Under the pieces are notes generated by a model, which was not told the DNA's origin, made no database searches, and saw only the letters and a list, made by a program, of their open reading frames with translations. A DNA stretch of 25,569 nucleotides from positions 1 through 25,569 of the IMG/VR virus record IMGVR_UViG_3300048026_000022; one strand, given 5' to 3'. This stretch comes from a virus. Shown piece after piece: positions 4,094-22,097 of this stretch (position 1 is its first letter; each line of letters begins with the position of its first letter). Both the position numbers and the translations under genes were made by a program.

Positions 4094-4801
4094 TTAAAAA
4101 GTTCGGCTTGCGCCTACAAAGTCCTCTGCCATATAGTCAAAAGATACATACCCTTGACTGCGTAATGAGCCAGAATCACTAACAGCAGAAGAATCTGCAA
4201 GAAGCCTGACTTGGTTTAACAAAATACTAATTACATCTGTCACACTAGTAAGATCTGTTCGCACCTTAACGAATGTCATTTCCTGATCGTCTTGTGCTGT
4301 TGCCTCTCCATCTAAGTCATCAGTCGCATAGAATGCTTCATTAATAAACTTATGGAATGCAGTTGATCTATTTTCTGACGTTACTGGGGTTTCACTTAAC
4401 CCTTTTCCAATTGCAAATGTATCTATGGAATCAGTTAAACTACCAGAGTCAGATAAAACCTTACCTGCTTTTGTAGATACAACATCAGTTGCCGCAAATG
4501 TATCTGTTCGTATCTTTTGTAAATCGTTAGAAACATTATCAGAAATATCTTGGCTATCACTTAGCGCCTTACTGGTCGCCTTTGATACTGTCTCTGTTGT
4601 ACCTATGTTATCAGTAATGAACTTAAAAATTAAGAACACACCAAATTCAATCTTTGCAATTGCCTTCTTAAACGTAACACTGGCAACTGCTTTCTTAAAT
4701 GTTATTGCCGCTACTGCTTTCTGAAACGTAACTGCCGCTACAGCCTTTTTAAACGCTATCGCAGATACTGCTTTCTTGAACGCAACAGACAGCTTAATCA
4801 T
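4094..4801 (-). CDS. Repeat-containing structural protein, probable tail or baseplate component
   Basis: The 235-residue protein has three parts. Residues 8-52 are five tandem 9-residue units of the form F-K-K-A-V-A-A-V-T, highly regular and basic. Residues 53-60 (GVFLIFKF) are a short hydrophobic link. Residues 61-210 are acidic and carry loosely repeated motifs such as KALSDSQDISD, KVLSDSGSLTD and SSAVSDSGSLRSQ. The C-terminus (GYVSFDYMAEDFVGASRTF) resembles the end of structural proteins seen near marine phage tail fibres. The start codon overlaps the stop of the BppU-like gene (TAATG), so the two are translationally coupled. Function is inferred from position and repeat architecture; I do not recognise a named family. 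Confidence 0.75.
   Translation of the reverse strand: MIKLSVAFKKAVSAIAFKKAVAAVTFQKAVAAITFKKAVASVTFKKAIAKIEFGVFLIFKFITDNIGTTETVSKATSKALSDSQDISDNVSNDLQKIRTDTFAATDVVSTKAGKVLSDSGSLTDSIDTFAIGKGLSETPVTSENRSTAFHKFINEAFYATDDLDGEATAQDDQEMTFVKVRTDLTSVTDVISILLNQVRLLADSSAVSDSGSLRSQGYVSFDYMAEDFVGASRTF
4646..4780 (-). repeat. Five tandem 27-bp units encoding a 9-residue repeat
   Basis: The codons for residues 8-52 of the structural protein form five head-to-tail 27-bp units. The peptides are FKKAVSAIA, FKKAVAAVT, FQKAVAAIT, FKKAVASVT and FKKAIAKIE. The DNA copies differ mainly at third positions, so the peptide is more conserved than the DNA. This points to selection on the protein rather than a very recent duplication. 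Confidence 0.85.
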
Positions 4802-10837: not shown

Positions 10838-12676
10838 TTATGCTCCTGCCATTGCTTTAGAGAAGTTACCACCGCGCAATCTAGCATCTGCTACAGCGCC
10901 TTTAGCGGCTTGAGCTATCTGGGGCATTAACTGTACGATCTCAGCACGTACGGTTTGCTGTACGCCTGTCGTTACGTTAATTGTTTGGTTAACAACAACA
11001 CCATTTCCGCCACCAAGATTCTTATTAGATACAATTGATCCTGACTGATTTGGAACAAAAAGTTCAGTGCCGCGCTCACCAACCATATATGACTGACCTG
11101 CCTGTACAGAACCACCTATAGCTTTAGGCGGTGACGGCATCGTTCCAATTCCTTCAACAATAGGCGCTGGGGTTGTTACATTTTCTCCTAGAGATGGAAA
11201 TGCTTTTGTAATTGCGCCAAATATTGACTGAGTGATGTAATACTGAACAAGCATCTCAATTAGGCTATCAACAACGCTTTTTGCCATCGCTTTCATAGCA
11301 TCAGAAAACTTTTGTGCGCCAGTTATCGCGTCTGTAAATCCTTTTGTAAAACCTGCCATTGCTTTATTGGTAAGGCTTGTAATACCTTCTTCGTAAGTCG
11401 GTAGTTTTTTACTAAAATCATCAAAAGCTTGCCTAAACGTAGAAACAGAGTCAGCGGCATTTTCATTAGCATTTACAATTGTATCTGTTGCCCTTTTGTA
11501 ATTTTTTGTTTTTTCTTGTGCCTCGTTTAAATTTTGTAAAGCGTCTGCCAAATCTATAGGATCAATTAAGCTTGTACCTTGCCCTTGTTCTTGCAAGTTT
11601 TTAAGCAAAGACAGTAAATTGTTTTTTTTCTGTTTAAGTTCACTGTCACTGTAATATTCTACAATTCCATCATCGCCAAAAAACCTAATTCTTTCTGGAT
11701 TAAAAGCACTTGTACCAAGAAGTTTGTTAATTATTGCAACATCTTTTTTAATTGCGTCAAAATTTGTTTTACTGCCCATCAAACGATCATATTCTGCCTT
11801 TGCACTGATCATGGCGTTATAAGTACCAATTACAGCGTTACCTATAGCCGCTCCTGCTCTTACTGCTTTTTTAGCACCTTCTATAAAATCGACAGCTATT
11901 TGACGACCAAAATCCTCAATACTTCCTCCTGCTAGTTCTATTTGCTCAAGCATATCTTTTTTAAGCATTTCAGAAATAGCGTGTATTGCAGGAGCCAATC
12001 CTGCTGTCATTTGTCTAGCAAGCCCAATAAATAATGACTTAAGGTTAGTCAAAGCATCGTTAGCATCTTCAACGCCCTTAGCGGCATCACTAGACATTAC
12101 AAGCCCTAGTGTCTCAGCCTCTTGCATTAAGGCTTTCATTTCCTCTGCGCCAAGACCTAATGTGTTTACAAGTGCCACACCCTCCGAATCAAACAGCTTC
12201 ATAGCTAATCTAACTTTGTCAGCAGAGTTTGTAACTTTAGAGAATCGGTCAGACAGAATTAACATTTGTTCATCTAGTGGCAACTTCATTAAAGATGACG
12301 CATTAATATTTAATTCTTTTAAAGCACCTTTAGCTTCACCAGTCCCTTTGGCGGCTTCTGCAAGTCGCCTTGTGAATCTTTGCATAGCCATGTCAAGCGT
12401 AGATGTTTGAACGCCACTAATCTCAGCGGCATAACGCAATGCTGATAAAGCCTCTGTGGTAGTGCCTATCTTTTGCGCTGTTTTTGAAAGAGAATCTATT
12501 GCCTCAATATTTTTCTTAACGAGAAGTCCAAATCCTGCCGCACCTGCGGTAACAGCTAAAGCAGACCTCATAGAAAAGACTGCCCCAGTGACTTTTTTTA
12601 GACCAGAAGTAACAGAGCCGAATGCTTTTTTGGTTTGATCAAATGCTTTTATATAAAAATTAAAATCTGTCGCCAT
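10838..12676 (-). CDS. Tape measure protein
   Basis: At 612 residues this is the long, largely helical protein expected right after the tail assembly chaperone. The N-terminal region has a helical pattern (FNFYIKAFDQTKKAFGSVTSGLKKV), an Ala/Gly hydrophobic segment (SALAVTAGAAGFGLLVKKN), and the tape-measure signature LSKTAQKIGTTTEALSALRY and then LDMAMQRFTRRLAEAAKG. Near the C-terminus are AMAKSVVDSLIEMLVQYYITQ and GGSVQAGQSYMVGERGTELFVP, the usual tape-measure ending. By the rule of about 1.5 angstrom of tail per residue, the tail would be about 90 nm long. The start ATG (12674-12676) lies inside the end of the -1 frameshift extension of the upstream gene, a 17-nt overlap. Confidence 0.92.
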   Translation of the reverse strand: MATDFNFYIKAFDQTKKAFGSVTSGLKKVTGAVFSMRSALAVTAGAAGFGLLVKKNIEAIDSLSKTAQKIGTTTEALSALRYAAEISGVQTSTLDMAMQRFTRRLAEAAKGTGEAKGALKELNINASSLMKLPLDEQMLILSDRFSKVTNSADKVRLAMKLFDSEGVALVNTLGLGAEEMKALMQEAETLGLVMSSDAAKGVEDANDALTNLKSLFIGLARQMTAGLAPAIHAISEMLKKDMLEQIELAGGSIEDFGRQIAVDFIEGAKKAVRAGAAIGNAVIGTYNAMISAKAEYDRLMGSKTNFDAIKKDVAIINKLLGTSAFNPERIRFFGDDGIVEYYSDSELKQKKNNLLSLLKNLQEQGQGTSLIDPIDLADALQNLNEAQEKTKNYKRATDTIVNANENAADSVSTFRQAFDDFSKKLPTYEEGITSLTNKAMAGFTKGFTDAITGAQKFSDAMKAMAKSVVDSLIEMLVQYYITQSIFGAITKAFPSLGENVTTPAPIVEGIGTMPSPPKAIGGSVQAGQSYMVGERGTELFVPNQSGSIVSNKNLGGGNGVVVNQTINVTTGVQQTVRAEIVQLMPQIAQAAKGAVADARLRGGNFSKAMAGA

Positions 12677-13156
12677 CGTTCTCGCTCATTATTTGAAAGT
12701 AGGCCAACCACTCATTGAAGTGATTGACAGGCATTTGCTCTGCTTCTTCTATCGTAATGTGAAGGCGATCAGCCAAAGATAATAGATTCATCCTTGATTG
12801 ATCGCTTCTTAGTTTTTTTCAGCCACCTCCGCAGATTCAATTTCAGCAAACATCTGATTGGCTATTTCTGATATGACGCTTGTTTCTTCGCCCATCAAAT
12901 CTAACCTATCTTCCGCAGACCCAAACAGCTTACTGCCGCCCTCATCTTCTGCCTTCATGCAAATCAAATCTACCATTGCACCGATAGTTGTGTTGTTAAG
13001 AAAGTCGGGGTGCTTTTTCTGTAACTGGTCTAAGTCATAGCACGTAATGGTTCTACAATATAACTTAAATGCTCCAGATTCGTCACCCCATGCAGGAACT
13101 ACAACTTCTCGCGCCTGTATCTTTCTTCTGTTTCGTAACTCTTTTGCTAATCCCAT
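12660..13156 (-). CDS. Tail assembly chaperone gpGT, -1 frameshift fusion product
   Basis: A -1 shift at the slippery heptamer (12812-12818) lets ribosomes leave the gpG frame just before its stop codon and read 50 further codons to a TAA at 12660-12662. The added peptide begins LRSDQSRMNLLSLADRL and contains HITIEEAEQMPVNHFNEWLAY, a helical sequence with the E-x-M-P...E-W pattern of tail-chaperone T domains. The full product is about 165 residues. In lambda and related siphophages, gpG coats the tape measure and the T domain recruits tail-tube subunits. No start codon with a proper ribosome binding site precedes the T part, so frameshifting is the only plausible way to express it. Confidence 0.85.
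12761..12818 (-). promoter_or_regulatory. Programmed -1 ribosomal frameshift site with downstream stem-loop
   Basis: Reading the minus strand, the heptamer A AAA AAC is in phase with the gpG codons GAA AAA AAC and directly precedes its TAA stop. Six bases later comes GCGATCA (12799-12805), whose perfect partner TGATCGC lies at 12765-12771 across a 27-nt loop. Allowing one bulged C, three more pairs (GAA with TTC) extend the stem to 10 bp. Slippery site, spacer and stem are the three classic parts of a -1 frameshift signal. Confidence 0.85.
12809..13156 (-). CDS. Tail assembly chaperone gpG-like (zero-frame product)
   Basis: This 115-residue protein lies between the major tail protein and the tape measure, the conserved site of gpG-like chaperones. 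It is largely charged and helical: MGLAKELRNRRKIQAREV at the start, a middle strand VVPAWGDESGAFKLYCRTIT, then LDQLQKKHPDFLN and an acidic end (ANQMFAEIESAEVAEKN). Chaperones of this type bind the tape measure and keep tail assembly orderly without entering the virion. Translation normally stops at TAA 12809-12811, but the slippery sequence at its end should send a fraction of ribosomes into the T extension. The function is assigned from position and the frameshift architecture more than from direct sequence identity. Confidence 0.85.
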   Translation of the reverse strand: MGLAKELRNRRKIQAREVVVPAWGDESGAFKLYCRTITCYDLDQLQKKHPDFLNNTTIGAMVDLICMKAEDEGGSKLFGSAEDRLDLMGEETSVISEIANQMFAEIESAEVAEKN

Positions 13157-13169
13157 GGTTTAAATCCCC

Positions 13170-13571
13170 TTAGTTAGATGCTGTAGTTACTGCTCCAGTA
13201 CATTGTATTGTAAAGCTTGCCTCTACCATGCCGTCAAAAGCGCCAGTAATAGACTTGCTTGTTACAATTCCTGATCCTGAGTAATACTCTTCACCAGAAC
13301 CAGTGCCAGTTGGATGTACTTGCCAATCGATAGATGCTCTCTCATCTAAGGCAGTTTGCTGTGCATCAGCCTCATCCCAGTAAACTTCTAGAGTCAATGT
13401 GTTAGTCGAAAGACCTTGCTTGTACGATCGTACAGAATCACCCATTACTGAATCTTCAATAGTGTCTGCTGAACCGTCTAACGTGAAAGAACGAACCTCG
13501 CCCACAACGGCCACAGAGCCGCCAGATGCCGCGATTTTTACTACACCAGATGCGCCTGTTTTAGTCGCCAT
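13170..13571 (-). CDS. Major tail (tube) protein
   Basis: The 133-residue protein starts MATKTGASGVVKIAASGG and is beta-rich, with a pattern common to small siphophage tube proteins: VGEVRSFTLDGSADTIEDSVMGDS, then LTLEVYWDEAD, and a last part GIVTSKSITGAFDGMVEASFT. The D-x-I-E-D-S-x-x-G-D stretch is a frequent tube-protein signature. It sits after the tail terminator and before the tail chaperone, as expected. The subunit would stack in hexameric rings around the tape measure. The upstream leader (13572-13594) carries an AAAGGT ribosome binding site. Confidence 0.85.
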   Translation of the reverse strand: MATKTGASGVVKIAASGGSVAVVGEVRSFTLDGSADTIEDSVMGDSVRSYKQGLSTNTLTLEVYWDEADAQQTALDERASIDWQVHPTGTGSGEEYYSGSGIVTSKSITGAFDGMVEASFTIQCTGAVTTASN

Positions 13572-15145: not shown

Positions 15146-15161
15146 ATAAACCTCGTAAGAA

Positions 15162-15179
15162 TGCCCCCTTTCGGGGGCA
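15162..15179 (-). terminator. GC-rich stem-loop after the capsid gene, partial terminator or mRNA 3' stabiliser
   Basis: On the minus strand TGCCCCC-GAAA-GGGGGCA forms a perfect 7-bp stem closed by a GNRA tetraloop, seven bases after the capsid stop codon. The following bases are TTCTTACG, so the U-run is weak. This argues for a leaky terminator or an RNA 3'-end stabiliser that raises capsid mRNA relative to downstream genes rather than full termination. Confidence 0.7.
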
Positions 15180-15186
15180 ATCAGTA

Positions 15187-20317: not shown

Positions 20318-20672
20318 TACTATCTACGATAATATTAATAGGTGGTATTTCTTGAACTTCTGCTTCTGTTTCTTTCCAACCTGCTTGGGTTTTAAGGTAA
20401 AAAATATTAGCCGCTACGTTACCTGCTTTAGCTAATTTTATTAGATTAGAACCCATACTAGCGCACTGTCTTACCCTTCCTTTTTTATAAGCGTCAGAAA
20501 CTTCTGGCTGTCGTTCCTCTATTGCTCTCAAAGTAGTTTCAGAAATGCAAAAGTAATCAGCTATCTGCCCTTTAGTAAGTACAGCGGACAACGCTTCTAG
20601 CTGGGTTATTTGATCCTCAGTAAACTCTATTATAGGTCTACCTCCACCATCACCTTGATTACCTTTCTTCAT
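20292..20672 (-). CDS. terS: Terminase small subunit
   Basis: This 126-residue protein overlaps both neighbours (14 nt with the methyltransferase, 26 nt with TerL). After a Gly-rich start (MKKGNQGDGGGRPIIEF), residues 17-65 hold a helix-turn-helix: LEALSAVLTKGQIADYFCIS with ETTLRAIEERQPEVSDAY. Then GRVRQCASMGSNLIKLAKAG and AANIFYLKTQAGWKET, the oligomerisation helices, are a highly characteristic pattern (F-Y-L-K-T-Q-A-G-W-K-E). Small terminases recognise the packaging start site and regulate TerL. The C-terminus (EIPPINIIVDSNAIN) likely binds TerL or the portal. The cos or pac site cannot be located from this sequence alone. Confidence 0.9.
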   Translation of the reverse strand: MKKGNQGDGGGRPIIEFTEDQITQLEALSAVLTKGQIADYFCISETTLRAIEERQPEVSDAYKKGRVRQCASMGSNLIKLAKAGNVAANIFYLKTQAGWKETEAEVQEIPPINIIVDSNAINQAAE

Positions 20673-21861
20673 TAGCTAACTCATTATATTTCTTGCCTGT
20701 TGATTCCATCACGGCTTCTTGACCTGCAAAGTCCTGCCACCGCTTAATAATGACATCGGCATAATGGCAATCAAGTTCCATCATGTAACAGCTACGATTT
20801 GTTTTTTCGCAAGCAATTAGCGTGCTACCACTACCTCCAAATAAATCTAATACAGTATTTACATTTTTAAAATAATTAAATGACCATTCAGCAAGGGCTA
20901 TAGGTTTTTGAGTTGGGTGAACTCTAGCAATTCCATGCTCACTGCCTTTTATTAAACCTTTCCATAAATGCCTAAATATTCTTACTGAAGAAAATTCAGA
21001 TTTAACCCAAGCCATTTCACAATCTGAGTTTAAATCTTTTTGTTTTTCTTCAACCCTTTTGTCCCATATAAACCAATTATTTGATTGAGGCAATGAATGG
21101 CAATAATAATTAGCACCCCACCATACTTGTCTAGGTATCTTTAAAGTCTCGCACAGGTTATAAGCGTCTACTGCATATCGAATGGTGTCATCATTAAAAT
21201 CTCCATATTTAACTCCATCTGATAACGACTTTGCACCTTTCCTTTTTGACCTATCGCCTTTTTCATTTATTCCGTAAGGCGGGTCAGTAAAGACCATATC
21301 GGCTTTGTTACCGTCCATCAGCTTATCTACTGCATCAATACTAGTAGAGTCCCCACACATTAATCTGTGATTTCCCAATATCCAGACATCACCTTCAACC
21401 GTTACAGGGTTTTTAGGGGCATCAGGAACAGCGTCTTCATCGGTTAAACCTTCGGCTGGCTCTTCTTCCATAAGCCCTGCAAGCATATCGTCATCAAACC
21501 CTAATAAACCAATATCAAAGTCTAACTCTGTTAGTCGGTCAACCTCTAGCTTTAAAGAGTCTAAGTCCCACCCTGCATTTACGGCAAGTTGATTATCAGC
21601 AATAACGTATGCTTTACGCTGTGCCTCTGTAAGCCCCTCTAAAGTAATAGTAGGAACTTCATCAAGTTTTAGCAACTGCGCGGCCTGTAGACGACCATGC
21701 CCTGCAATAATACCGCCATCATGATCTATCAAGATAGGATTAGTAAATCCAAATTCTTTTATGCTTGCCGCTACTTGTTGTACTTGCTGTTCGCTATGTG
21801 TTCTTGAATTATTAACATAGGGAACAAGCTCCCCAGTTGACTTGTACTCTATAGATAGCAT
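20659..21861 (-). CDS. ParB-like domain fused to beta-class DNA amino-methyltransferase
   Basis: From the ATG at 21859-21861 (TGATG junction behind a GAGG site) the protein has 400 residues; a TTG one codon upstream is unlikely. The N-terminal ParB/sulfiredoxin-like domain spans about 1-120, with GGIIAGHGRLQAAQLL at 49-64. The methyltransferase domain follows a linker: NHRLMCGDS (164-172), the catalytic DPPY at 193-196, HPTQKP at 315-320, and the S-adenosylmethionine-binding FGGSGST at 341-347 with MELD at 361-364. Because DPPY precedes FGGSGST, this is the beta order. It methylates an adenine or cytosine amino group in DNA, site unknown. No restriction nuclease is next to it, so it is probably an orphan that protects phage DNA or marks packaging substrates. 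Confidence 0.9.
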   Translation of the reverse strand: MLSIEYKSTGELVPYVNNSRTHSEQQVQQVAASIKEFGFTNPILIDHDGGIIAGHGRLQAAQLLKLDEVPTITLEGLTEAQRKAYVIADNQLAVNAGWDLDSLKLEVDRLTELDFDIGLLGFDDDMLAGLMEEEPAEGLTDEDAVPDAPKNPVTVEGDVWILGNHRLMCGDSTSIDAVDKLMDGNKADMVFTDPPYGINEKGDRSKRKGAKSLSDGVKYGDFNDDTIRYAVDAYNLCETLKIPRQVWWGANYYCHSLPQSNNWFIWDKRVEEKQKDLNSDCEMAWVKSEFSSVRIFRHLWKGLIKGSEHGIARVHPTQKPIALAEWSFNYFKNVNTVLDLFGGSGSTLIACEKTNRSCYMMELDCHYADVIIKRWQDFAGQEAVMESTGKKYNELANEER

Positions 21862-22097
21862 CAAACCTCAGTACCGAATAACTCTTCGGATAATGGTTGT
21901 GGGATTGTAGGTTCAGGAGGTGGCTGATTAAGCTTTACGTTTACTTCTTCACACCAGTTTAAAATCTCTTCTCTAACTTGCTGTCGATTATACTCTGGAT
22001 AAGTTAAAGTCTGGGTAATCGCATCGATCTTTTCGACTAATTCTACCCAACCTCTGTCATTTGCTTCGTTGATTTTAGATACTAATTGCAACTCCAT
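21861..22097 (-). CDS. Small unknown protein at the head of the packaging operon
   Basis: The 78-residue protein starts MELQLVSKINEANDRGWVEL behind an AGGTGA ribosome binding site and ends in a Pro/Glu-rich tail (PPPEPTIPQPLSEELFG). The first 55 residues are predicted helical and amphipathic; no metal-binding or catalytic motif is visible. It is the first gene after the promoter at 22127-22155 and is translationally coupled to the methyltransferase (TGATG). A partner of the methyltransferase or of the terminase is possible but unproven. I do not recognise the family. Confidence 0.75.
   Translation of the reverse strand: MELQLVSKINEANDRGWVELVEKIDAITQTLTYPEYNRQQVREEILNWCEEVNVKLNQPPPEPTIPQPLSEELFGTEV

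Follow-up and report, generated by a model that had tools for sequence, protein, structure and literature searches.

The closest described counterpart of the locus presented here is the G/GT pair of phage lambda, the frameshift mechanism of which was reviewed in PMC5009743. In lambda, the genes follow the order tail tube, G, T and tape measure, a -1 shift occurs near the end of G, and T, with ~144 codons, overlaps the start of the tape-measure gene; the lambda sequence has the slippery heptamer G_GGA_AAG 15 nt ahead of the G stop. In the SEA-PHAGES data used to train PRFect, the heptamer-to-stop distance averages 26 nt (PMC10885494). A second point of comparison is given by the -1 signals of IS elements, which very likely use A_AAA_AAC and G_GGA_AAC, both weak motifs in E. 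coli, with or without a downstream structure (PMC4066793); the genes are unrelated to those considered here and the product is a transposase. Homologues of gpG occur in CRP-822-type roseophages and pelagiphages (CRP-821, CRP-811, CRP-406, and HTVC026P). In these four and in HTVC111P the heptamer directly abuts the stop of gpG, the records of all five cultured phages leave the T frame unannotated, and the word frameshift is absent from the roseophage paper (PMC12629253).

Here we analyzed a 25.6-kb virus record (25,569 nt, as a whole referred to as the window) in which the end of a gpG-like gene very probably carries a programmed -1 ribosomal frameshift site of the lambda G/GT type (probability of about 0.94, judged from sequence comparisons). 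The locus is similar to lambda in its gene order, in the predicted shift near the end of G, in the overlap of T with the start of the tape-measure gene and in the match of T to PHROG 337, while it differs from lambda in the length of T (50 codons), the heptamer (A_AAA_AAC), the heptamer-to-stop distance (0 nt) and the presence of a hairpin. As far as can be told from the sequence, it is an ordinary instance of a known mechanism with a lineage-wide layout, i.e., a heptamer flush with the stop and a T of ~50 codons, and it adds a well-supported case of G/GT frameshifting in marine phages.

Gene order and the gpG gene

The window contains a siphovirus-like head and tail module encoded on the minus strand, in the order terminase, portal, capsid, tail terminator, tail tube, gpG, tape measure, and distal tail protein. 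Its terminase and capsid are nearest to those of the Pelagibacter phages HTVC111P, HTVC202P, and HTVC026P and the freshwater phage DSL-LC06 (44–54% identity within the phage collection), and its gpG is nearest to that of CRP-822-type roseophages (35–43%). By order and by protein family alike, the gene flanked by those for the tail tube and the tape measure is a G-like chaperone gene. The features discussed below are:

13170..13571, minus strand: major tail (tube) protein gene (Pfam Phage_tail_2 and PHROG major tail protein), directly upstream of gpG and the expected partner of T
12809..13156, minus strand: gpG-like tail assembly chaperone gene, an ORF of 115 aa ending in TAA (12811-12809); PHROG 344, predicted fold of the HK97 chaperone 2OB9
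12818-12812, minus strand: A_AAA_AAC, the in-phase slippery heptamer adjoining the gpG stop; an in-phase heptamer occupies this position in 245/245 loci
12758..12811, minus strand: gpG stop, short spacer and candidate stimulatory hairpin (paired part ~12808-12761; fold -22.6 kcal/mol, z -5.8; covariation in related clades)
12660..12812, minus strand: T segment in the -1 frame, 50 codons and TAA, the C-terminal part of a predicted gpGT of 165 aa (junction EKN-LRSD)
10838..12676, minus strand: tape measure protein gene (PHROG tape-measure families, best E 2.5e-58), its start overlapped by the end of T over 17 nt

The profile match of gpG is PHROG 344 (tail assembly chaperone), and 2OB9 (HK97 chaperone) and YqbN (3KLU) are among the four solved structures that best match its structural model (pLDDT 73); the modelled fold is that of an HK97-type tail chaperone, despite the lack of any sequence match when the gpG profile was compared with the PDB. 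Neither Pfam nor NCBIfam provided an informative match for G, T or GT. Two single viral proteins, the tail assembly chaperone of RcRhea and D6PII1, are each matched by the G model as well as by the T model (with weak E-values for T), and the G and T of CRP-821 align weakly to successive parts of the 160-position PHROG 16513 (E = 0.0018 and 0.32, respectively).

Elsewhere on the minus strand, a ParB-like N-terminal domain is fused to an N6/N4 DNA methylase (Pfam; 20659-21864) in a gene adjoining a probable small terminase gene, and at the start of a 235-aa protein (4094-4801) a motif resembling FKKAVAAVTF is repeated in tandem about six times.

The slippery heptamer and the -1 frame

The initial annotation placed an A AAA AAC in phase immediately before the gpG stop, which is correct base for base: the final gpG codons are AAA AAC, the A of the preceding GAA completes the heptamer, and the TAA adjoins it. 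Relatives were collected in three scans of viral contigs seeded with the gpG of the window, HTVC026P, and CRP-406, which yielded 240 loci and, together with four cultured phages and the window, a set of 245 that is redundant and comprises 106 distinct site/T combinations. None of the seed peptides used in scans one and two extends over the heptamer, and one of the six seeds of the third covers it (SVEEQEKN). In all 245 loci, an in-phase slippery heptamer immediately precedes the gpG stop; since in-phase XXXYYYZ motifs account for only ~0.4% of codons in the genes of this window, a chance origin of the heptamer is excluded. Three variants occur (AAAAAAC in 218 loci, GGGAAAC in 19, and AAAAAAT in 8), with the XXXYYYZ pattern intact in each. 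Four further relatives found by other routes agree, namely one MAG contig each of Akkermansiaceae (AAAAAAC TAA) and Pseudomonadales (GGGAAAC TAA), DSL-LC06 (AAAAAAC TAG), and HTVC111P (AAAAAAG TAA).

The change from AAAAAAC to GGGAAAC turns a gpG codon from Lys to Gly and preserves the slip pattern alone, and is therefore hard to account for except by frameshifting. The same variant bears on the idea that RNA polymerase slips on the A-run and produces mRNAs with an inserted or lost A, in which the extra frame is opened. Runs of seven consecutive A in the window and nine in the HTVC026P group would suit this explanation, but seven A are short for strong polymerase slippage, and the GGGAAAC relatives keep the T frame with only three A and three G, which excludes slippage on an A-run in those relatives and leaves it an extremely improbable source of T at this site. 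In the HTVC026P group itself (L084-like loci), where the heptamer lies within the nine-A run, polymerase slippage could add to ribosomal shifting.

Downstream of the heptamer, the -1 frame reads CTA AGA AGC GAT ... and stays open from 12812 to 12663, with its TAA at 12662-12660; the tape-measure ATG lies at 12676. The earlier statements that the frame is open for exactly 50 codons and ends inside the start of the tape-measure gene hold in their coordinates, and the gap of 132 bp that would precede the tape measure without a shift was measured as 132 nt (12808-12677). T was also described as unusually short, which is true in comparison with lambda but not for the lineage, where 47–56 codons are normal: the -1 frame is open over this length after the shift in 245/245 loci, one of them cut by the contig end. 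Over the 40 codons after the gpG stop, pN/pS in three groups of relatives was 0.22, 0.23, and 0.17 in the -1 frame, as opposed to 0.76–1.03 in the 0 frame and 1.9–3.3 in the +1 frame, and in these groups every member has stops after gpG in the 0 and +1 frames, while no member has one in the -1 frame. Judged by these ratios, purifying selection acts on the -1 frame only, and the comparison among relatives proposed by the initial annotation found no loss of the frame. Stop-codon readthrough was also considered and rejected, as the 0 frame beyond the TAA runs for only 6 codons in the window (adding six residues) and is interrupted by a stop in all relatives belonging to the three groups.

The T segment is modelled confidently as three helices (pLDDT 87.5), and a W-x-x-Y motif in a T frame of similar size is common to the window, the CRP-822-type roseophages and the HTVC026P/HTVC111P-type pelagiphages. 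Both the T segment and lambda gpT match PHROG 337 (for the T of CRP-821 with E up to 2.6e-6), whereas hhalign gave a weak result when the T profile was aligned directly to lambda gpT by itself, so that, as profile comparisons go, PHROG 337 is the better link between the two. The absence of a Pfam or NCBIfam match for T would fit a reading in which a short intergenic stretch contains an open -1 frame, a heptamer and a hairpin by chance; against it stand selection confined to the -1 frame, the universal openness and heptamer, and the match to PHROG 337, and as the pN/pS contrasts between frames refute it, its probability is practically negligible. In Vibrio phage 1.168.O, a more distant relative by its terminase, no comparable site was present at the one gene end examined.

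The downstream hairpin

A perfect 7-bp stem (GCGATCA/TGATCGC, 27-nt loop) had been noted after a 6-nt spacer and is present in the sequence. Its proposed extension to 10 bp with one bulge was found again as the lower stem, but the structure had been understated, as the 27-nt loop itself pairs: the full fold is one long hairpin, in which this lower stem (10 bp, one bulge) carries an upper stem of 10 bp and a 5-nt loop. Folding of this region, which the initial annotation had suggested as a check, gave a minimum free energy of -22.6 kcal/mol (z = -5.8), with 0/200 shuffles as good, and the hairpin ranks second strongest of 1963 windows tiled along the minus strand. The strongest one (15146-15186, GCCCCCGAAAGGGGGC followed by ATTCTT) lies directly behind the capsid gene and looks like a terminator or attenuator. 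An Rfam search of 12600-13200 returned only sub-threshold chance matches.

The canonical -1 combination of an X_XXY_YYZ heptamer and a structure 3–6 nt downstream of it is found in the clade of the window, not in all relatives. Within the clades that have the hairpin, it covaries: 88.8% of cells are paired, all slid controls being lower, and both-side changes affect 46 cells compared with 16.6 ± 2.7 in shuffles, numbers that do not translate into probabilities as the sequences are related; an example is a G-C to C-G exchange at columns 14/54 in seven sequences. Members of the hairpin clade have z mostly between -3.4 and -7.2 (one at -2.2). No significant downstream hairpin was detected within the first 57 nt in CRP-821, CRP-811, CRP-406 or HTVC026P, and the CRP-406-, CRP-821-, and HTVC026P-like loci tested over the same length mostly lack significant structure as well, with L180 (z = -3.2) as an exception. 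Flush placement of the heptamer is thus what all clades share, whereas the hairpin, found in some clades and missing or short of significance in others, is optional.

The hairpin also matters for a reading without any frameshift, in which T is a separate 43-aa protein started at ATG 12791-12789 by internal initiation or by re-initiation after the gpG stop. This ATG is only 17 nt past the gpG stop, near enough for coupling, and the same codon is an in-frame ATG in 79 loci and a GTG in one; yet it is buried inside the hairpin, there are 0 Shine-Dalgarno matches upstream of it in the loci having that start, and the stretch before it is also open and conserved. Moreover, 120 of the 245 loci, including the cultured CRP-821, have no start in codons 3–12 of the -1 frame and keep the heptamer and T nevertheless. 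Separate initiation as the origin of T is thus very unlikely, while the ATG may add some free T in the clade of the window.

The Akkermansiaceae gpG/T relative named above (L247; MAG contig JAGYIT010000017.1, 582 kb) combines A_AAA_AAC TAA with a hairpin that is likewise strong (-22.9 kcal/mol); its occurrence inside a bacterial MAG contig possibly reflects a prophage or a binning error.

Expected course of the proposed frameshift

The proposal that the signal yields a gpGT tail chaperone is supported by the conserved and selected -1 frame, the universal heptamer, the gpG fold and PHROG 337. In the programmed frameshift favored here, most ribosomes would terminate at the TAA and release gpG, while a small share would slip back by one base with tRNA-Lys and tRNA-Asn on A_AAA_AAC, presumably assisted by the hairpin in the clade of the window, and read 50 more codons to give the predicted gpGT. 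By analogy with lambda, the G part would bind the tape measure and the T part would recruit the tail tube protein. Against this reading stand the weakness of the heptamer motif in E. coli, which may differ with the tRNAs of the phage's own host, the lack of a significant stimulator in most hairpin-less relatives tested over 57 nt, and the in-frame ATG in the clade of the window. The weak motif is also consistent with a low share of gpGT.

Given the flush stop, competition between termination and shifting, also raised by the initial annotation, is plausible. An active part for the terminating ribosome, with the gpG:gpGT ratio tuned by how slowly termination proceeds at the neighboring stop codon (a shifty-stop component), would give a reason for the heptamer being held flush and could replace the hairpin in hairpin-less clades, but we consider this addition unlikely. 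Clades that have and clades that lack the downstream hairpin form a natural experiment on one and the same chaperone pair, in all of which the heptamer touches the stop, and the respective roles of termination and stimulator in setting the gpG:gpGT ratio are therefore testable.

In many relatives without a significant hairpin, UAAGGAG, a strong Shine-Dalgarno match overlapping the gpG stop, directly follows the gpG heptamer (L175, L178, L180, L186, L200, L203, L210, and L085); ribosomes could pause there, or the motif could merely follow from the coding of Leu-Arg-Ser.
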